Below, in pieces: positions 10,004 to 19,554 of a DNA stretch of 64,000 nt. The stretch's first letter is position 1. Each line of letters starts with the position of its first letter. Source of the stretch: Terriglobales bacterium (lineage in GTDB: Bacteria > Acidobacteriota > Terriglobia > Terriglobales > Acidobacteriaceae); the NCBI GenBank assembly GCA_025936825.1, contig JAICSO010000002.1, forward strand, positions 1-64,000, read 5' to 3'. The notes under the pieces are model-generated. The model was not told the origin of the DNA. It made no database searches and saw nothing but the letters and a program-made list of their open reading frames with translations. Both the position numbers and the translations under genes were made by a program.

Positions 10004-10501
10004 CTAGGGTTTGGGCTTTTCAGTAGGCAGAGGTACGTTGGGCCGCAGCAGGTACGTACGCTGGCTGTTATGAGGATCGTGGCAGGAAAGGCATTCACCC
10101 TTCATATACGGGACCTCATCCATGGCCGCTTTCTCGTGGCAGGAGTAGCAGATTTTGTCTTTCGGCAGAACGAGCATGATGGAAGTCTTTCCATCCGCAA
10201 TACTGACCACATGGCAAACGGTACAGGCGTGAGCGAAATCGAAGTGAACGGATTGACCTTTCGTCCTCTCCGCGTGGCAGGAGAGGCACTCGCTGCCTGC
10301 TGGAAGGTTCCGATGATCGGCGGCTAAGGCGGGCGCAGCCAAGGACAGAATACAAACAACGAAGCACCACAGGATCTCGACCGAAAGCCCGTGAAACGGA
10401 CGGCCCAGCTTAGCCCAGCGCGGCAGCGCTGGGTAGAGTCGCGATGAACGAGCTAGTCCCAGAGGGACGGCCAAGCGCTCCGAGGGTAAGGCGCCACTCA
10501 C
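10004..10501 (-). CDS. Tetrahaem c-type cytochrome (doubled CXXCH type)
   Basis: Four haem-c sites are visible: CLSCH, CTVCH, CYSCH and CLSCH, the last followed by DPHNS as in doubled-CXXCH proteins. A hydrophobic export segment (ILWCFVVCILSLAAPALAA, about 43-61) should place it in the periplasm, where it could pass electrons. The frame opens at GTG 10501, overlapping the stop of the upstream binding protein as GTGA. However, the first about 40 residues are encoded by a copy of the composite hairpin repeat, and no better start exists before the signal segment. Either the N-terminus is an odd extension or an unrecognised start is used. Last gene of the operon. Confidence 0.8.
   Translation of the reverse strand: MSGALPSERLAVPLGLARSSRLYPALPRWAKLGRPFHGLSVEILWCFVVCILSLAAPALAADHRNLPAGSECLSCHAERTKGQSVHFDFAHACTVCHVVSIADGKTSIMLVLPKDKICYSCHEKAAMDEVPYMKGECLSCHDPHNSQRTYLLRPNVPLPTEKPKP
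10384..10472 (+). repeat. Composite three-hairpin repeat, copy 2
   Basis: Contains GGCCCAGCTTAGCCCAGCG with CGCTGGG as its closing arm, then TAGTCCCAGAGGGACGGCC. It has the same order of dyads as at 2510-2590 and 56262-56346. It lies inside the 5' end of the tetrahaem cytochrome reading frame, antisense to it. Confidence 0.7.
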
Positions 10502-12402
10502 CTGGCATCTCCTGTCGGCGTGAAGCTCACTCCCGCAATCGTGTCCCCGGATGCTAGATACGCGCGAATTTTGGCACGATCAGCGCCGGATGCACTGGCC
10601 GCCTCCACGAAAACATTCAGAGCTTTCTCCAAAGGCGTTCCTTCCGGCAAGCGGAAAATCCACGGGACGTTTGTCGTCGTCAGCATTCGGTCCGACGAAA
10701 TCGCGATCACCGGAACAAACGCCTTCGACCCGATCTGCTCGGCCAGGTGCGCAGCATTGCGATCCAGCGCGATCACGCCGACGACGCCTTCCTGATACAC
10801 AGCATTTACTAAACCGGTTGAAGCCTTGCCCCACGCAACATGGCTTGGAACGGCGACAAGTGTGTAGTGACGTCCCGACGTCTCCAACTTCTGCACAGCG
10901 TTCACGGTTTCAGGCAAAGCAATCGCCCTTTCCGCACCTGGCCCGAACACCGCAATCTTGATCTCCGGCGAATTTGAGAGCGGCGTGGTTGCTGGCCCGT
11001 AGTATTCAACGCCATCTTCACCAACCTTCGCGTATGCCTGCACCTTTTCCATCGTGATGCGGCGGTAAGTGATCTTGCCGTCGCGTACTGTCCCTAGAAA
11101 CAGCGGGCTGATGTTCTTGCAGTTGGGATCGAACACCATGTGCCCGGTGACGCCGTCATATTCAGTCACACCGGTGAGCACATCGCGAATCCGCCCACGG
11201 TTGAGACCTGCGCGACAGATCGACTGCAGCAGCACCTGCATGGCGTCATACGCAAGCGCGGCGAAATGGTCGGGCTTTTCGTGGTATTGCGCTTCAAACC
11301 GGGCATTGAATTCCAGCCACTTCTGCGTACGCTGGCTGGGATCATAGGGATAAACCGCCTCAAATCCTTCTGCGGCAGGTCCAGCGGCTTTGATTAATTC
11401 ATCGCCGACTGTGCGATGGCTGCCAAAAACACGCTGCTTCATGCCGAGTTCGCGCATTTCTTTCAAGATCTCAGCCGCGGGCCCCTGGTCGGTCCACAAA
11501 ACAATCGCATCGACGCCGGTGTCGTTGATGACGCCGAGCTGGTGACGAAAATCGGTATCGCCGGGGAAGAATTTTTGTTCGATCGCGACGGGATGTCCCA
11601 ACCGTCGCGAGGCATCGCGAAACTTGATTACGCCAAAGCGTCCATAGCGATCGTTCACACGTAGAAGGGCGACCCGCTTCAGTCCGAGGTCTGTGTAAAT
11701 GTGCCGCGCCAGGGTGTATCCCTGCACACGGTCATCTTGGAGGTCGGTGAAGTACCATGGAATGATCGTCTCGGGAATCGTGGGGTCGGTAGACGCACTG
11801 TTAATCAGCGGCGTCTCCGCCTTCAGCGTAAGGCGAAGGGCAATGTGAGTAGATTCCCCGCTGATCGAGCCGAACATGGCCCAGACCTTGTCGTCATAGA
11901 TCATCTTCACAGCGTCGTTTGAAGCCGAGCCCCAGATTGCCGAATCCTTGTCGGGACCTTGCGTCGCCAGCCGGCTATTCTGCCAGTTGTCATAATCGTT
12001 ATGCGTGATGATGCGAAATGGTTTGCCGCAATAACCGCCGGCCGCATTCGCCTCGTCCACGGCCAACTCCGCGCCGTTCAACATGCGATGACCAAGCGCC
12101 TGATCGGGATGATCGTACAGAGGCGCCAGAAAGCCGATGCGAATCTCATCCAGGGTTTTGAGATCAGGGTCGGGAATATCCCGCGCCGCACCGTTGTACT
12201 CGATCAGGTCGTTATAGTGCTCGTAGTACGGCTTCTGAAACTTCGCGTATGGGCGCAGATCGTCTGGTGCGCCGGCGTACGGATGCAATGACCGAGGAGC
12301 GGGACGCTCTGGGGGATTGCTTCCGCACGAGCAGGTGCCCGTCTGAGCACCTGCTGCGCACGTCAGGAACGCGGAGAGCACAATGGGCAGTATGCGGCGC
12401 AT
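10498..12402 (-). CDS. Periplasmic branched-chain-amino-acid-type binding protein, two receptor domains
   Basis: A 634-residue exported protein (signal peptide residues 1-20, MRRILPIVLSAFLTCAAGAQ). A type I periplasmic binding domain of the Peripla_BP_6/LivK kind runs from about 70 to 430 (IRIGFLAPLYDHPDQ, DDKVWAMFGSISGES, SASTDPTIPETI). A shorter second receptor-like region covers about 460-634 (IKIAVFGPGAER, VVGVIALDRNAAHLAEQ). No permease or ATPase gene is near, so it may act as a sensor or as a chaperone of a periplasmic substrate. The ATG at 12402 is preceded by CAGGAGTAACACC; a longer frame to 12801 only shadows the gene upstream. It sits 4 bases after the RidA-like gene and overlaps the cytochrome gene. 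Confidence 0.85.
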   Translation of the reverse strand: MRRILPIVLSAFLTCAAGAQTGTCSCGSNPPERPAPRSLHPYAGAPDDLRPYAKFQKPYYEHYNDLIEYNGAARDIPDPDLKTLDEIRIGFLAPLYDHPDQALGHRMLNGAELAVDEANAAGGYCGKPFRIITHNDYDNWQNSRLATQGPDKDSAIWGSASNDAVKMIYDDKVWAMFGSISGESTHIALRLTLKAETPLINSASTDPTIPETIIPWYFTDLQDDRVQGYTLARHIYTDLGLKRVALLRVNDRYGRFGVIKFRDASRRLGHPVAIEQKFFPGDTDFRHQLGVINDTGVDAIVLWTDQGPAAEILKEMRELGMKQRVFGSHRTVGDELIKAAGPAAEGFEAVYPYDPSQRTQKWLEFNARFEAQYHEKPDHFAALAYDAMQVLLQSICRAGLNRGRIRDVLTGVTEYDGVTGHMVFDPNCKNISPLFLGTVRDGKITYRRITMEKVQAYAKVGEDGVEYYGPATTPLSNSPEIKIAVFGPGAERAIALPETVNAVQKLETSGRHYTLVAVPSHVAWGKASTGLVNAVYQEGVVGVIALDRNAAHLAEQIGSKAFVPVIAISSDRMLTTTNVPWIFRLPEGTPLEKALNVFVEAASASGADRAKIRAYLASGDTIAGVSFTPTGDAR

Positions 12403-12406
12403 GGTG

Positions 12407-12889
12407 TTACTCCTGAGGACTGGGCTTCTGGAAGATGGCAATTGCTTCGATCTCCACCAGTAAGTCTGGCCGGCAGAGAATCGCTTGAATGCCCGTGGAA
12501 GCGGGTACCGGATTAAGACGCTGCTCTCTATACAACTGTGTCCGCTCCTCATTGAAGGCTTGATAGTCGCGCTCGATATCGCGCAGGTAACAAGTGGTGC
12601 GGACGATGTCTTTCCATGTCGCGCCCTCCGACTCCAGCAGCGCGGTGATGTTGTCGTATGTGCGGCGCACTTGCGAGCGTAAATCGCCGACATACAGCGT
12701 GCGGCCGTGATCGTCGATGCTTGCCGTGCCGGAAATAAACAGCACGACAAACTTGCCGAGTTCAACACGCATGCCGCGCGAGAACGCGCTTCCGTAGTCA
12801 TAAGCCTCGTTCAGCACGTTCAAGTTGGTGATGGCGCGCTTCTCAATAGGCGCGGTTGTGATTTCGTGAAGTAATTCTGCTAGGCCCAT
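12407..12889 (-). CDS. RidA/YjgF-like protein without the catalytic arginine
   Basis: This 160-residue member of the YjgF/Rid superfamily has the typical strands (VVLFISGTASIDDHG, TTCYLRDIERDYQAFNEE, LVEIEAIAIF). True RidA imine deaminases carry an Arg in the PARS(T) motif before the EIEAIA strand. Here the segment reads NPVPASTGIQ, so that Arg is absent and deaminase activity is doubtful. It may bind a small carbonyl ligand or belong to a divergent Rid subgroup. A good ribosome site (AAAGGAGAACCT) precedes the ATG. It lies in the eight-gene operon between the Reg_prop protein and the binding protein. Confidence 0.85.
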   Translation of the reverse strand: MGLAELLHEITTAPIEKRAITNLNVLNEAYDYGSAFSRGMRVELGKFVVLFISGTASIDDHGRTLYVGDLRSQVRRTYDNITALLESEGATWKDIVRTTCYLRDIERDYQAFNEERTQLYREQRLNPVPASTGIQAILCRPDLLVEIEAIAIFQKPSPQE

Positions 12890-12912: not shown

Positions 12913-14058
12913 CTACCGCAAAGTCTTTGCAACCCGCATTGCTGATTTACCCTGTCTTCCTTCGTGTGCCTTAGTGACCTTCGTGGTGGAATTGTCTTTG
13001 ACCCGAATTCCGTGACTCAATCCCTCAGCTGTCGCCACCCAGATGTCGTCGCCCTGAAAGTCCACGCCGAGGATATAGTTGTGCGCCGGGGCAGTCGTGA
13101 CCGCGATTGGCGTGATGTTTCCGTCCGCATCGCGCACCAGCATCTCCGGTCTGTGGGTGTCCATTGCGGGACGATACACAGCCCAATTGGTGCCGTCGTA
13201 ATAGGCGAGGCCTTTGTCGGTTGAAAACCACGCGCGATCGCCGTCAACGCCTTTCACCTGGCTGGTGAAGTTGCTGGGCAGTCCGCTGTCTTTATTCAGG
13301 AAGTTGTGCCAGTTGCGGCCGTCGTACCGGCTGGCACCGAAGTAGGTCGAGACCCAGAGGATCTTGTTCACGTAGCTGACCGAAGTGGTGATCTCGTGAA
13401 TCAGCCCCTGGTCTTTGAAGAGCACCAGCTCGGTCTCGCCGTCGGGATCGTTGTAGTCCTTCCAGCGCTCGGTCTTGACGTCGTACTCAAGAACGCCTCC
13501 GCCCCAAACGGCGTAGTACACCTTATCTTCCGCAGGACTGACGGCATAAACCCAAATCTCGAACATCGGCGTGTTGCGTTCGTTAAACAGGGCCCACTGT
13601 CCGGTACGAGTGTTGTACCGGCTGGCGCCAGCAGCGGTCGCGGTCCAGACGTAATCGCCGTAAATGCCAACGCCGTACACGATGTCATTGCTGAGACCTG
13701 AATTGAGCTGCGTGAAAGTGTCGATGCGGCCGGGGGAGATTCGGTTCAGTCCGCCCATTGTTCCGGCCCACACGTCCCCTGTGTTCTTGTCGAGCGCGAG
13801 TGAGAGGACAGCTTGATGGGCCATGCCGTCCGCCGGGCGATATATCTTCCACTTACCGTTCTCATAAACGCCGAGTCCATTGTCGGTCCCAGCCCAGACA
13901 CGATTGCCGTCGACCAGGACGCAAAAGACGTGGTTGTTGGGCAAACCATCCGCGATCGTGAAATTCTCCCAACGGAACATCGGCATATTGGGCGGGGCCG
14001 CCACCGCAGGAAGCGCGAGAACTGCGGCGGCGGTGAGGTAAAGGATTGTTCTTCTCAT
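12913..14058 (-). CDS. Secreted beta-propeller with Reg_prop-type repeats
   Basis: A 381-residue exported protein (signal peptide MRRTILYLTAAAVLALPAVAA). Repeated strands of the form VWAGTDNGLGVY, VWAGTMGGLNRI, VWTATAAGASRY, LWVSTYFGASRYDG, AWFSTDKGLAYYDG and IWVATAEGLS mark the propeller normally found on the sensor side of hybrid two-component systems. Here it stands alone with no membrane or kinase part. The C-terminal 28 residues or so are encoded by CACGAAGG/CGCAAAG repeat DNA and do not look like a folded domain. Its ATG overlaps the original stop of the upstream YVTN gene as ATGA. Confidence 0.8.
   Translation of the reverse strand: MRRTILYLTAAAVLALPAVAAPPNMPMFRWENFTIADGLPNNHVFCVLVDGNRVWAGTDNGLGVYENGKWKIYRPADGMAHQAVLSLALDKNTGDVWAGTMGGLNRISPGRIDTFTQLNSGLSNDIVYGVGIYGDYVWTATAAGASRYNTRTGQWALFNERNTPMFEIWVYAVSPAEDKVYYAVWGGGVLEYDVKTERWKDYNDPDGETELVLFKDQGLIHEITTSVSYVNKILWVSTYFGASRYDGRNWHNFLNKDSGLPSNFTSQVKGVDGDRAWFSTDKGLAYYDGTNWAVYRPAMDTHRPEMLVRDADGNITPIAVTTAPAHNYILGVDFQGDDIWVATAEGLSHGIRVKDNSTTKVTKAHEGRQGKSAMRVAKTLR
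12914..12995. repeat. CGCAAAG / CACGAAGG word repeat inside a coding 3' end
   Basis: Minus-strand words CACGAAGGTCACTAAGGCACACGAAGG and CAAAGACTTTGCGGTAG (given in pieces of repeat words CACGAAGG and CAAAG) form the end of the Reg_prop gene including its stop. The same type of word is intergenic at 57640-57680 and in the CACAGAGG elements. Confidence 0.55.
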
Positions 14059-15664
14059 AACGTCCTCAAGTACTCAATAAGGTCGTTCAGTTCATCCTTT
14101 CGTCAGATCGTTGGTCACGCCGTGCTGATCCTTGGGATTGAAAATGGTCCAGATTTCCTCCAGCGACCGCGCGGCTCCGTCGTGCAGATAAGGAGCGGAA
14201 TAGGCCACATCGGGAAGTTGCGGGGTATCCACAAGTGACGACCGGTCTGTCGCGCGACCAGTGCCAACGTCGAAAGACGTACTTCTCGGTGCGCGGGCCG
14301 CACTCCGTCGGCAGATCGGGATTGCCACCGTTCCACTTGTAAGGCTGCGTGCCCATCAGGTTTTCGATCGATCGGTTATCGACGATGTCGACGCCGAAGC
14401 CGTCCGGTTCCAGGTCCCACTCCAGGCCATCGAAGGTCGTGTCGAGATGGCAACTGGCGCAGCTAAACTGTCCTTGAAACGAGAAGCGAGCGTCATTGAA
14501 CAGTTGCTCGCCACGACGCAGTGGGGTGGTCGTCTTCGGCCCGCCAAGATCGAAATTAAAAGCAACTTTGGATGTGGCGGTATTGAGAACCGAGATAGTG
14601 TCATCCATACGATTCGCCACATAAAGGCGGTGGCCGTCAGGGGAGAGCACGATGCCCCGCGGATTGCGACCGACGGGAATTCGCGTGATGACGTAGTTCG
14701 AGGACGCGGAGAGGTCATTGGTCGCGTCCTTTCCATGTGTGCGCGAGAACTTCAGCAGTGCAGGCACATTGATTGCCGTGATCGTGTTCGATCCTGCAGC
14801 GCTGACGAATAACTTCGTGCGGTCCGGGGTGATCGCAGTGCTGAACGGCAGTGCAAAGTATCGGTCAAGCTCGTCAATAGGGAGGGGAACTGCGCTCTCG
14901 AAGCCTGGCCCAAAAAGAACGATCGAATTGACGAACGCTCCTCCATGCTCCACGTGGGCAAGCGGCACCAGGTTTCTCGGGCGAAGCACTGTGGCAGCCC
15001 CGAGTTGACCATCAGACGCAATCGCGAGATGAAATACACCCGCGGAGTTGTGCAGCGGAATGCGGTCTATCACGCGCCGGGTGATCGTGTTGATAACCGT
15101 AATCTCCGACTCGGGCGGACCTCGCCGCGCATTGATGGCCGGGTAGATATGACTGCAGTACAAGCGCGTCCCATCCGTCGACAGAGCCAGGTAACTTGCA
15201 CCGCGTCCTCCCTCAAGCCGCTTGAGTTCTTTTCCAGTTCGAAGGTCGATGACGGAGATGTCGCTGCTCAGGCGATTGGCTACGTAGAGCACTTCGCCCT
15301 TCTTGTCTGCCACGGCACTGATCGGCTCGAAGCCAGCCTTCAGTGTCGCGACGGTTTCCAGTTTCTGCGTGTCGATTACTGAAACCGTGTCATCCCACGA
15401 GTTCGCGATGTAGACTTGCCGGCCGTTGGCCGAGACACTCAGTCCGCGCGGAATGTGACCGACACGGATCACTTTGACCACGCCGCCCGTTGTCGTGTCT
15501 ACAACGCGGAGTTCATCGCTATTTTCGCAAGCTACATACAGCCGCCGCCCGTCAGGCGACACCGCCAATTCGCCAGGCGAGAGAAACTTCAGCAGCAGGT
15601 CGCCAGGTCGAGTGGCCGCGGTGGCCGCCGCGCACAGCAGGAAGATGGAGAAGAGTCGAATCAC
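14055..15664 (-). pseudogene. YVTN beta-propeller / dihaem cytochrome gene with internal deletion and frameshifts
   Basis: An exported protein (MIRLFSIFLLCAAATAA) with an N-terminal YVTN propeller (repeats such as LYVACENSDELRVVD, VYIANSWDDTVSVID, LYVANRLSSDISVID) followed by a cytochrome-c-peroxidase-like domain with one haem site, CASCH. The open frame ends at 14087, but from about 14275 its residues are nonsense. The expected continuation (FDVGTG, VDTPQLPDV, APYLHDG, NPKDQHGVTNDLTK) lies in a second frame. The final DELNDLIEYLRTL lies in a third frame, after an extra G at 14096-14097. The second haem site that should lie between TEKYVFR and FDVGTG is missing, so about 80-100 codons seem deleted. 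The restored end gives TTATGA, overlapping the next start. The start is GTG, overlapping the upstream stop as GTGA. Confidence 0.8.
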
Positions 15665-17298
15665 TTCGGCTCCTCCACGGTGATCACCCGATCGAGGGCG
15701 GGATTGTCAACGACCTGCTCGCGCCCGCTCGGCCAGCGAATCGTGATCTTGTCGATGCTGGTCGCCGTGCCGAGTCCGAAGTGCAGCCGGCCATCGTCTT
15801 GTGAGAGGTATCCAGAACCGGCCACGCGTTCCGCAATCTGCTTCTTGCCATTGACCGTGAGTTCCGCACGCGCGCCGATCCCGTCGCGATTGCTCTTGGT
15901 CCCCCTCAGCGCGATGGTGATCCAATGGTTCTTGTTTTCTGAGACATTGTGGAGAAGCGTCCCTCTCGCTCCCAAGTTCACCACGTAGGCATCGACCTTG
16001 CCGTCATTGTCGTAATCCGCAAAGCACGCGCCGCGCGAAACCGTTTTCACATCGAGCACCGGCCCGGCTTCGCGAGATACATCATCAAATTTGCCATCGC
16101 CCAGCCCCCGATAGAGCGACTGCTCCTGCGGCACCATGTGCACCAGCCCGCCGTGAAAGACAAGGATGTCGAGCCATCCGTCGTTATCGAAGTCGTAGAT
16201 CCCGCTGCCCCAACTGACGTACTGGCCAGTAGTGGCGGAAATCCCTGAACTCGCACTGATGTCCTCAAAACCCTGCTTTCCGCGATTGCGCATCAGCCGG
16301 TCGTACTTCGAATCCGTAACCCAGAGATCAAGCAGTCCGTCGCCTTCAACATCGGCGAAGGTCGGTCCCATCGACGATGTCATCTCGCCGTTCTGGCCGT
16401 AAGCAACTCCGAGATCGCCTGCAATCTCCTCAAACGTGCCATCGTGCTTGTTGTGGAAGAGAAAGTTTTCAGTCTTGTCGTTCGAGACGTAAATGTCGGG
16501 CCAGCCGTCGTTGTCGAAGTCGGCGGCGCTCACACCCATCGTGCGGCCCTTATAGGCACCAATGCCCGACGCATCGGTCACGTCGGTGAACGTTCCGTTG
16601 CAGTTGTTGTGATACAGACGATTGGTGGTCGGCGCGTAGTCGAGTGGGCCAGGATAGTTGTCGGCGGGATAGTAAGCGCGATACTTTGGATCGAACTTCA
16701 CATACCGGCCGACGAAGAGATCGACGCAACCGTCTTTGTCGAAATCGAGCCACGTGGAGCTGATCGACCAGCCGTCGACATTGATGGCCGCCTTCTTGCT
16801 TACATCCGTGAAGGTGCCGTTCCCATTGTTGTGATAAAGGATTGCCTGGCCATAGCTGGTCACGAACAGATCGACGAAGCCGTCGTTGTCATAATCGGCT
16901 GCGATTGCTGCCATCCCGAAGATGTTTGCCGCGACGCCAGCCCGCTCGGTGACGTCAGTGAACGTTCCGTCGCCGTTGTTCTTGTAGAGATGGTTGTGGG
17001 GAGCAATATCGGGCTGCTTCTTCAGCGGATATGGATGGATGCCTTCTCCAAGCGACTTGCCGCTGACCACATAGAGATCGGGCAAGCCGTCATTGTTATA
17101 GTCGAACCAGACGCAACCGCCGCCGGTGCTCTCAAGAAGCGATCCAAGCTTCTCCGCGCCGAAACTGTGGATGAAATCGGTACCAGACCTCGCGGTAGCG
17201 TCTTCAAATCGGAAGGATTCATTGCTCTTTGCAGGCGTGGCATTCTGCGCAATTGCTACCGAGATCAGGAGGATTGGGAGTGCGAGGCGAGGGAACAT
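15661..17298 (-). CDS. CRTAC1-like FG-GAP/VCBS repeat protein with ASPIC/UnbV domain
   Basis: A 545-residue exported protein (signal peptide about residues 1-18). Five or more calcium-binding-like FG-GAP/VCBS blades are visible through DxDxDG motifs (DYNNDGLPDLYV, DYDNDGFVDLFV, DFDKDGCVDLFV, DFDNDGWPDIYV, DFDNDGWLDILV, DYDNDGKVDAYV). The C-terminal ASPIC/UnbV domain ends in TIRWPSGREQVVDNP. Such proteins are surface or periplasmic and often neighbour PQQ or cytochrome genes; their role is not settled. The start overlaps the stop of the upstream gene (TGATG) and its stop overlaps the next start (GTGA), arguing for translational coupling. The frame is open to 17463 but that extension has no signal peptide. 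Confidence 0.9.
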   Translation of the reverse strand: MFPRLALPILLISVAIAQNATPAKSNESFRFEDATARSGTDFIHSFGAEKLGSLLESTGGGCVWFDYNNDGLPDLYVVSGKSLGEGIHPYPLKKQPDIAPHNHLYKNNGDGTFTDVTERAGVAANIFGMAAIAADYDNDGFVDLFVTSYGQAILYHNNGNGTFTDVSKKAAINVDGWSISSTWLDFDKDGCVDLFVGRYVKFDPKYRAYYPADNYPGPLDYAPTTNRLYHNNCNGTFTDVTDASGIGAYKGRTMGVSAADFDNDGWPDIYVSNDKTENFLFHNKHDGTFEEIAGDLGVAYGQNGEMTSSMGPTFADVEGDGLLDLWVTDSKYDRLMRNRGKQGFEDISASSGISATTGQYVSWGSGIYDFDNDGWLDILVFHGGLVHMVPQEQSLYRGLGDGKFDDVSREAGPVLDVKTVSRGACFADYDNDGKVDAYVVNLGARGTLLHNVSENKNHWITIALRGTKSNRDGIGARAELTVNGKKQIAERVAGSGYLSQDDGRLHFGLGTATSIDKITIRWPSGREQVVDNPALDRVITVEEPK

Positions 17299-18665
17299 CA
17301 ATGCCCTCCTGTGGCGTGAGCTTGAGTTTTGTGCGGAGATGTGAGGTCGGCTGCGACAGTCGAGCGTTGCAGCACCATGGGAACGGAATTGTCCGCCGCG
17401 CGTTCCGGACCGGCATGGCACCCTACGCAAATGCGTTGTTCGCCCTTGCGCAGCCAGAACCAACCCGCTTCGGATTTCACGGTTTTGCCGGCGGCATTCA
17501 GCAACTCAATCCGCAACGGTACATCCCCGGGGACGCGCAGGTAGAAGGAGCCGTCCTTTTCTACCTGCGCTGTCCCTTGCACCTGAGTGCCCCCCTGAGC
17601 GTCGCGTGTGTACAGGCGGACGGATGCGATGGCTCCCTCAGCAATGTGATCTCTTGATGTGTATGCGTTAAGGCAAAGAGCGTTTGCATAGTTCCATTCG
17701 TGCAGGGCGGAAGGATGCCGATTGGGTATTGGCCGTTCCGCCAGCAGCGCCGGTTGCAGGAGATTTGCTTTCGAATCGCGCACCAGCGAGAAGGAAGTCG
17801 CTGTCCCCGGCTTCCACGTGCGAAGCTCAAAATGAGTTCCGGACGACGTGTGCGCACTCACAATCCACTCGCCGTTTGGAGTTTCGGCAACGTCGCCCGC
17901 GTAGGTGCCCGCCGGCGCTCTCACTGGGACCTCGTGCGCCAGCGCCGATGTGAACCGGAACAGTTTGCCATCGCGGGTGAAGACCACATCGCCAGAAGGA
18001 ATCTGCTTGCTGGACTGCCGCGAGTGCCCGTGATCACAGCGGTACGCCTCAATTCCGCTCCCGTCGGTGTAGACGGTATAAAGCTCCGCTGTCGTCCCGT
18101 CGTCGAGAGGGAAATCGCTCGCGAACAAAATGCGGCCATCGCGGAGCACGTCATTGGGAATGGAATCTCCCAGCGCGTGTGTCAATTGAAGCGGCGCAGT
18201 TTCGTCTTTCAGCGAAGCGATCTGGATCGCAAAGTGACCGGACGATCTATGCGCGTATACGAACCGCTCTCCAGGAACGTAGAGCGGCCTGATGCAATCG
18301 TCATCGCACTGCGTGACCTGGCGCGGAATGCCTGTCAGGATAGCGACTTCCCAAACCTGCCAATGGTCCGCCGCCTGCTTCTTGCCAGAGAACAGCACCG
18401 ATTTCGCGTCGAAAGAAACATCCGCATCCGCAGTAGCGAAGAAGCCTGGCACCACCGGCCTTGCCGGACCGTTCGATTTCATGAACACGGTCGCGCCTTG
18501 CGGAAACCGATCTGCACCTTCCAGCCATGCCAGCCGCTCGTATCTCGGAGTGGATGTGTACAGCAAAGGCGCGGAATTTGGCCGCCGTGCAGGTTGCTTC
18601 TCGGAGCCGAGAAGAGACGCAGAGAAAATAACCGCAAATAAAAGGACAAGCAGGCGGACTCGCAC
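17298..18665 (-). CDS. Secreted TolB-like propeller protein with hydrazine-synthase-alpha-like CXXCH domain
   Basis: A 455-residue exported protein (hydrophobic residues 3-20). The first about 290 residues have WD40/TolB-like propeller strands (SFDAKSVLFSGKK, DGRILFASDFPLDDG, NGEWIVSAHTSSG). The C-terminal part (about 310-440) resembles the middle domain of hydrazine synthase alpha (HEWNYANALCLNAY, VEKDGSFYLRVPGDVPLRI, WFWLRKGEQRICVGCHAGPE) with a single haem site at about 413-417. In this phylum such proteins are not linked to anammox, so electron transfer or haem-based sensing is inferred. GTG start 1 base after the DAHP synthase stop; the end overlaps the CRTAC1 start. Confidence 0.8.
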   Translation of the reverse strand: MRVRLLVLLFAVIFSASLLGSEKQPARRPNSAPLLYTSTPRYERLAWLEGADRFPQGATVFMKSNGPARPVVPGFFATADADVSFDAKSVLFSGKKQAADHWQVWEVAILTGIPRQVTQCDDDCIRPLYVPGERFVYAHRSSGHFAIQIASLKDETAPLQLTHALGDSIPNDVLRDGRILFASDFPLDDGTTAELYTVYTDGSGIEAYRCDHGHSRQSSKQIPSGDVVFTRDGKLFRFTSALAHEVPVRAPAGTYAGDVAETPNGEWIVSAHTSSGTHFELRTWKPGTATSFSLVRDSKANLLQPALLAERPIPNRHPSALHEWNYANALCLNAYTSRDHIAEGAIASVRLYTRDAQGGTQVQGTAQVEKDGSFYLRVPGDVPLRIELLNAAGKTVKSEAGWFWLRKGEQRICVGCHAGPERAADNSVPMVLQRSTVAADLTSPHKTQAHATGGH

Positions 18666-18666
18666 G

Positions 18667-19554
18667 CTAGTTGGGCCCTCCCGCTACCAGGAGTTGAGGC
18701 CCCACGATGTCGAATACAGGAGCGAAGTGCACGTATCGCCGCAAGTCGCGCATCATCTCGTCGAATTCCTCGAGGCTGAGCGTCTGTGCGGCGTCGCTCC
18801 ATGCCTTCTCAGGCGTGGGATGGGCTTCGATGAGCAATCCATCGGATCCAATCACCGCGGCTGCACGCGCCATGAGTGGAACGAGGCAGCGAATGCCGGT
18901 CCCGTGGCTGGGGTCGACAATGACGGGCAAATGCGAGACCGTTTTGAGTACGGGAACAGCAGCGAGATCAAGCGTGTTACGGGTCGCAGTCTCGAATGTG
19001 CGGATTCCGCGCTCGCAAAGAATGATTTCGGGGTTTCCAGCCTCGGCGATGATCTGCGCAGATTGCAGTAGCTCTTCCAGTCGCGCTGTCATGCCACGTT
19101 TCAGCAGTACCGGTCGTCCGCAGCCTCCCAGCGCTTCGAGCAGCGAGTAATTCTCCATGCTGCGCGTGCCCACCTGCATGATGTCGGCGTACTCGGCAAC
19201 GATATCGACGTCTTCTTCGCTCATCACCTCGGTGACGATGGCCAGGCCGGTCTCTCGCCGGGCCTTGCTGAGAAGTTTGAGACCATCAACGCCGAGTCCC
19301 TGAAACGAATAAGGGGACGATCGGGGCTTGAACGCGCCGCCGCGAAGCACCTGCGCTCCAGCCTGGGCGATGGCTTCCGCTGTCGTCAGAAGTTGTTGTT
19401 CTGATTCCACCGCGCAGGGGCCAGCCATTACTACAAAGGCACTATCCCCAATTGTCAGTTCACGAATGTGGATGACAGTGCGGCAGCGTTCGGCGGTCTT
19501 GGCGACGAGGTCGAACCGGGAGAATTGTCCGTTCCATTGGGAGTTCGGGGCCAC
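18667..19554 (-). CDS. aroF: 3-deoxy-7-phosphoheptulonate (DAHP) synthase, AroA-I-beta type
   Basis: Condenses phosphoenolpyruvate and erythrose 4-phosphate, the first step to chorismate. The catalytic barrel is complete: [73 protein letters not shown] and LLIEAHP. At 295 aa it lacks most of the N-terminal ferredoxin-like regulatory domain found in Thermotoga-type enzymes of about 340 aa, so tyrosine/phenylalanine feedback control through that domain is unlikely. GTG start at 19554. It is the first gene of a run of secreted redox proteins and is separated from the next by 1 base, an odd pairing for a housekeeping enzyme. Confidence 0.92.

Follow-up and report, generated by a model that had tools for sequence, protein, structure and literature searches.

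Organization of the broken gene

The window analysed here is a stretch of 64,000 nucleotides from a Terriglobales bacterium of the Acidobacteriaceae (contig JAICSO010000002.1, positions 1 to 64,000). It contains, on the minus strand, the damaged copy of a gene for a hydrazine synthase (HZS)-like beta-gamma subunit. An earlier note on this DNA had described a YVTN-cytochrome gene that carries a deletion and two frame changes and keeps its junction with the next gene. The remnant comprises the following features:

14055..15664, minus strand: broken beta-gamma HZS-like gene, whole remnant (YVTN propeller and di-haem MauG-type domain)
14087..15664, minus strand: frame-0 open reading frame (ORF) of 525 amino acids, with the propeller, the first haem motif, CGPR, and a missense tail that ends with the TGA at 14089-14087
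14447..14461, minus strand: sole remaining CxxCH (CASCH), equivalent of haem gammaI
14291..14302, minus strand: CGPR, whose Cys aligns with gammaCys165 of hydrazine synthase
14270..14284, minus strand: deletion junction (KYVFR), with a net 230 nucleotides gone, the first frame change, and the second haem motif lost
14098..14274, minus strand: second-frame piece FDVGTG...APYLHDG...NDLTK
14094..14101, minus strand: second frame change, at a short A/G run
14055..14096, minus strand: third-frame tail DELNDLIEYLRTL (14096-14058) and TGA stop (14057-14055)

Frame 0 starts with a GTG at 15664, where a GTGA is shared with the stop codon of the upstream gene. Approximately its first 464 codons belong to the family and the remainder encodes unrelated residues; when residues 446-524 were scanned alone against Pfam, no family was matched. 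The second-frame piece (FDVGTG at 14274-14257, APYLHDG at 14196-14176, and NDLTK at 14112-14098) aligned residue for residue to the homologues, with none of its 21 invariant columns changed, and the third-frame piece DELNDLIEYLRTL has the C-terminal wording typical of the family, so that the second-frame piece is not a chance open frame. Numbering of gammaCys165 is our own count on the alignment of the intact homologue L011 with PDB entry 5c2v, together with the gammaCys102 given in excerpts of PMC12758564.

These coordinates bore out the description of three successive frames (propeller to KYVFR, then FDVGTG...DLTK, then DELNDLIEYLRTL) and of a missing second haem site: no second CxxCH was found in any minus-strand frame across 14055-15664. 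The protein had also been said to read well up to TEKYVFR. This held for the frame-0 reading, but the family homology probably ends with KY, VFR being junction sequence, because the V of KYVFR is not a residue of the family (its column has F in 30 and I in one of 31 close homologues). The stop of the tail (14057-14055) overlaps the ATG (14058-14056) of the next gene in an ATGA; that this overlap marks the old gene end, as proposed, agrees with L011, where the end of the gene likewise overlaps that neighbour by four bases.

Size of the loss

Homologues were taken from contigs of relatives (26 loci) and from whole genomes; 47 loci were read and two duplicates dropped, giving 45 distinct homologues. 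Among the 26 contig loci, L011-L019 were full-length, and the other 17, which matched only to query residue 390 (propeller), were left out. Both haem motifs (two or more CxxCH; three in L049) and a tail with LN[DE]L were present in all 45 distinct homologues. A natural end after TEKYVFR, the counter-case raised by the earlier note, was looked for and found in none of them.

The same note had proposed measuring the missing segment by alignment with full-length homologues. The distance from CGPR to DVGT is 31 nucleotides in the window versus 87 codons (261 nucleotides) in 13 of the 15 homologues in which it was measurable, the other two having 88 and 76 (four further loci had no CGPR match and four on the other strand were left out). 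Therefore, the net loss is 230 nucleotides, or some 76 residues, among them those of the second haem motif. Neither the missing piece nor an intact copy was found elsewhere in the genome (6.54 Mb, 99.67% complete), where the next best place gave an E value of 0.57. A deletion between short direct repeats was considered; the overlap at the junction would be practically nil if the V is junction sequence and a few bases otherwise.

Identity of the gene product

Compared with PDB sequences, L011 matched 5c2v_B over the propeller (E 4e-40) and 5c2v_C, the gamma chain, over the di-haem part (9e-25). With profile A1, which includes the frame-0 ORF of the window, 5c2v_B ranked first (4e-61) and 5c2v_C gave 6e-34. 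The best NCBIfam model for L011 was the beta-gamma fusion NF052342 (E 1e-59, 202 bits, against a curated cut-off of 1250). By these sequence matches, the broken gene is identified as coding for an HZS-like beta-gamma subunit in a conserved operon. The earlier note had missed this identity: the gene is not a generic YVTN-cytochrome.

Several results weigh against this assignment. The scores with all HZS models are far under the curated cut-offs; the top PDB match of L011 is the YVTN surface-layer protein 1l0q (2e-43), just above 5c2v_B; and the frame-0 ORF matched two general propeller models (1e-43 and 8e-43) slightly better than the hydrazine synthase beta (5e-42) and fusion (4e-41) models. 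A top match to 1l0q is expected for a repeat propeller, and part of the match is generic propeller. An AlphaFold2 model of the L011 beta-gamma protein showed a good propeller with 5c2v_B as best fold match, and a di-haem half with predicted local distance difference test (pLDDT) values mostly below 50, for which no claim is drawn; the gamma chain was absent among the 50 fold matches listed for this model.

The operon and its conservation

All the genes discussed at 10.0-19.6 kb lie on the minus strand. The neighbours of the broken gene, from the head of the operon, are:

18667..19554, minus strand: extra DAHP synthase, head of the operon
17298..18665, minus strand: HZS-alpha-like gene with TolB-like propeller, middle domain, and one CVGCH
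15661..17319, minus strand: FG-GAP / UnbV_ASPIC gene between alpha and beta-gamma
12913..14058, minus strand: Reg_prop propeller gene, with its start in the ATGA overlap
12407..12889, minus strand: RidA-fold (Ribonuc_L-PSP) gene
10498..12399, minus strand: periplasmic substrate-binding protein (Peripla_BP_6), 633 amino acids

The alpha-like protein has 455 amino acids and a single CVGCH near its C-terminus, while chain 5c2v_A has 782 residues. It contains the HZS_alpha middle domain PF18582 (E 5e-15) and matched 5c2v_A at 5e-10 by sequence and 2e-21 by profile, over the N-terminal propeller and the haem-motif region. The first two matches of its predicted fold (mean pLDDT 72.6) were 5c2v_D (2.4e-14) and 5c2v_A (1.1e-13), followed by TolB propellers (1.2e-10); the superposition on 5c2v_D and 5c2v_A is only partial, with a template modelling score of 0.54-0.55 by query length and a root-mean-square deviation of about 11.

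All nine loci L011-L019 share the gene order alpha, UnbV, beta-gamma, Reg_prop, RidA-like, substrate-binding protein. Compared with L011, the neighbours of beta-gamma in the window are full-length or nearly so, and the damage is confined to the 3' part of beta-gamma. A DAHP synthase gene stands beside the operon in five of the nine loci, ahead of it in four and between the RidA-like gene and that of the substrate-binding protein in L019. In the other four (L015-L018), just 53 to 1072 bases are available ahead of alpha; no DAHP synthase match was found in the 840 to 1072 bases present in three of them, and L016 is too short to show one. In a separate set of 100 relatives, beta-gamma was found in 14 (1e-100) and alpha in 13 (1e-30), all 13 being within the 14; the relative with beta-gamma and without alpha, G058, is 70% complete. 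The DAHP synthases of seven genomes of the same genus and the two further copies in the window genome are 49-55% identical to the operon copy. The operon and its private DAHP synthase thus seem to occur together or not at all, as judged from eight genomes.

The best models for the RidA-fold protein were RutC and Rid (1e-13 and 4e-13), and it also matched the chorismatase subfamily TIGR04444 (5e-8). The Arg characteristic of RidA imine deaminases appears, by eye, to be replaced in it. Together with the private DAHP synthase, this protein could point to a substrate that is aromatic or derived from chorismate.

The UnbV_ASPIC/FG-GAP proteins form a large paralogous family, with 25 matches in the window genome; the seven sister genomes have between four and 20 apiece. 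The alpha-like match in genome G009 (L056) has two TAG stops inside it, and an open frame of 435 codons with the haem motif remains.

Comparison with known systems

According to excerpts of PMC12758564 (Hagglund et al. 2025), clade II HZS-like clusters consist of alpha, an FG-GAP (CRTAC1) gene, and a fused beta-gamma; their beta-gamma has no extra haems, and their alpha lacks the second haem and the last hundred or so residues. The same order of alpha, FG-GAP, and fused beta-gamma is present in the window and in all nine loci L011-L019, and the alpha of the window likewise has a single haem motif and a truncated C-terminus, while its beta-gamma is without extra haems. Genes for FG-GAP and ABC substrate-binding proteins are also mentioned there. 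The window operon therefore matches the clade II type as excerpted, placed by layout rather than by a tree. It differs in the absence from beta-gamma of the second haem motif, which these excerpts report in all homologues, and in its Reg_prop, RidA-like, and DAHP synthase neighbours, which they do not mention. hzs-like genes have also been reported in Planctomycetota and KSB1 (PMC10732223, in excerpt). No published account of this operon in Acidobacteriaceae was found in the result listings of a literature search.

With the hydrazine synthase of Kuenenia stuttgartiensis (5c2v), the window operon shares the subunit architecture, significant sequence matches for alpha, beta, and gamma, and an equivalent of gammaCys165. 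In contrast to that enzyme, beta and gamma are fused here, alpha has no second haem motif, and the gammaII motif is lost in the window. Two key residues also differ. The position of gammaHis144 is aligned with Trp in L011 (KWNG versus RHEG), and the window has KWNGGNPD. AlphaTyr591, a haem ligand four residues past the His of CxxCH, is replaced by Glu in the CHAGPE of the window; seven of the eight other loci aligned also have CHAGPE, and L019 has CHEDKS. This region is ungapped against 5c2v_A in our alignment, whereas a gap of two residues is reported in the excerpts of PMC12758564, which give Trp for gammaHis144 and no conservation of alphaTyr591 in such homologues. Its authors, as excerpted, doubt that clade II clusters synthesize hydrazine, and give electron transfer as the presumed role of haem gammaII.

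The CxxCH di-haem arrangement is also that of the MauG / MbnH / CCP family (PF03150, TIGR04039), to which weak matches were obtained; the window protein differs from it in a better fit to the hydrazine synthase models, in its N-terminal beta propeller, and in the loss of one haem. A hydrazine dehydrogenase partner was not found in the genome, whose sole match to the HAO-family PF13447 scored 87.5 bits with the hydrazine dehydrogenase model, far under its cut-off of 900. Since the two key residues are absent and this single PF13447 protein is so far below the cut-off, hydrazine synthesis by the intact operon would be unlikely. The PF13447 cytochrome itself (L109 2316-3743, contig C65) has 475 amino acids and eight CxxCH by eye, and its gene adjoins an apparent membrane-protein ORF.

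Paludibaculum fermentans is an acidobacterium. The phylum is thus not wholly new to HZS-like clusters, since this species is listed in clade I in the excerpts of PMC12758564.

Age and reality of the lesion

Invariant columns were defined from 31 close homologues (at least 50% identity), the 14 more distant ones being left out. One of the 61 columns of the upstream piece departs in the window (V to I) and, as stated above, none of the 21 in the downstream piece; when each homologue was left out in turn, departures ranged from 0 to 6 upstream and from 0 to 1 downstream, so that the window values are inside the range. This retention indicates that full constraint acted on the gene until very recently, or acts on it still. 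In the class as a whole, 72 beta-gamma matches were found in 66 of 399 genomes (E 1e-100); none has an internal stop, and 69 extend to residue 612 or 613 of 613. Three end early: the window gene (469), G050 (413), and G217 (411). The G050 match is merely cut, since its ORF of 701 amino acids (L049) carries both haem motifs; in G217 the match ends at 411 within an ORF of 729 amino acids. Beta-gamma (1e-100) and alpha (1e-30) are both lacking in all seven further genomes of the genus, which are 65 to 97% complete, and thus there is no sister allele to compare.

Recent decay and assembly error were the two explanations offered by the earlier note, and this pair fits. Its observation is confirmed and its interpretation partly supported. 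We lean toward a real and recent inactivation over an assembly artefact. The two frame changes are about 175 nucleotides apart (both within 180 nucleotides) in one gene of an otherwise intact operon, and for this reason they probably do not represent independent events: decay may already have been open to the gene, or a single local sequence problem may have produced both.

A local assembly or consensus error is a serious contender, although we do not consider it probable. In that case the gene would be intact in the cell, and the contig would have lost about 230 nucleotides and miscounted a base over a short stretch that was poorly covered or strain-mixed. Two breaks inside 180 nucleotides in an assembly of 141 contigs, with the other operon genes full-length or nearly so compared with L011, no excess change at the invariant columns, and both haem motifs in all 45 relatives, speak for such an error. 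Against it stand the position of the site, 14 kb inside a contig of 650 kb, and a clean loss of 230 nucleotides, which demands more than one miscounted base. Misassembly driven by repeats was considered and is ruled against, as no exact direct or inverted repeat of at least 12 bases was found in 13900-14700. There seem, moreover, to be few frame errors in this assembly. When 457 kb were scanned for frame switches by codon pairs, five candidates exceeded a log-likelihood ratio (LLR) of 4, one of them at the Reg_prop/RidA border, and one exceeded 6; the scan found 59 of 120 simulated breaks. All 25 UnbV-family matches in the genome, including that of the window, are without internal stops.

Several points count, on the other hand, against a real inactivation or weaken the tests that favour it. 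The conservation test is weak, since it would give the same result for a young pseudogene as for an intact gene. The present lesion escaped the frame-switch scan owing to the shortness of its pieces. The sensitivity of the scan was estimated on the genes used to train it, so that the bound on the background is rough. A frame break would give a shortened UnbV match rather than a stop, and one of the 25 (C74:6593-7687) is clearly shortened. With its cut-off of 1e-100 and at most three candidates scored per genome, the class survey would miss copies broken near the start. Two close frame changes among intact neighbours, with no substitution decay, are also the pattern of a local consensus error, and the junction is known from the assembled sequence alone.

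We consider it improbable that the shortened gene is functional, either as a working mono-haem variant made of the frame-0 propeller and a single haem, or with the pieces joined by recoding. Frame 0 is open for 525 codons and keeps the first haem motif, CGPR, and the invariant columns. However, the second haem is missing in none of the 45 homologues, and frame-0 residues 446-524 have no Pfam match. Recoding would need two different shifts, no shift can supply the 76 missing residues, and neither site resembles, by eye, a known slippery sequence. An old pseudogene, long decayed and kept as an operon spacer, is still harder to credit, because two lesions instead of one would suit it, but there is no premature stop in about 464 upstream codons and invariant residues are retained almost perfectly on both sides of the break.

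Proposed consequences of the lesion

With moderate confidence, we propose that the gene encoded the beta-gamma subunit of an HZS-like periplasmic haem complex, of clade II type by its layout, and that its inactivation in this lineage is very recent. The assembled sequence lacks 230 nucleotides net from the interior of the gene, and with them the second CxxCH; this loss changes the reading frame, which changes once more at an offset about 175 nucleotides farther on. The product would keep the propeller, the gammaI-type haem site, and the Cys165 equivalent, followed by about 60 missense residues. As the gammaII-type haem and the C-terminal part are gone, the di-haem domain would be unable to fold or turn over, and the complex would be dead or absent. 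Downstream translation of the Reg_prop, RidA-like, and substrate-binding protein genes may persist, because the new frame-0 stop is 28 nucleotides ahead of the next start.

By analogy with the family, the native reaction is probably that of a haem-based oxidoreductase of small molecules, and probably not hydrazine synthesis. More tentatively, and with doubt as to the proposal as a whole, the Acidobacteriota operon, which has six or more genes (alpha-like, FG-GAP, beta-gamma, Reg_prop, RidA-like, and substrate-binding protein) and often a DAHP synthase of its own, might build an HZS-family complex that catalyses some other reaction, as yet undescribed, in which the substrate is perhaps nitrogenous or aromatic, and this genome might be a natural knock-out of the catalytic subunit in which the rest is still expressed.

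Taken alone, the broken gene is nothing out of the ordinary, being a damaged member of a known group, and the surrounding operon is moderately interesting; the gene matters because it points to a tightly conserved HZS-like operon. A strain losing only the catalytic subunit, if the loss is real, would be a natural control. Automatic HZS labels outside anammox bacteria do not imply anammox.

Dispersed repeat near the locus

A 27-base dispersed repeat was detected in 11 places (up to six mismatches) in 457 kb of the window's contig and in none in one shuffle; three of the 11 places are close inverted pairs. The copy at 12961 falls within the 3' end of Reg_prop; compared with L011, the ORF of this gene has 27 additional amino acids. 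The sole candidate of the frame-switch scan above LLR 6, on contig C34 near 298902, is close to a dispersed-repeat pair at 299247 and 299284.

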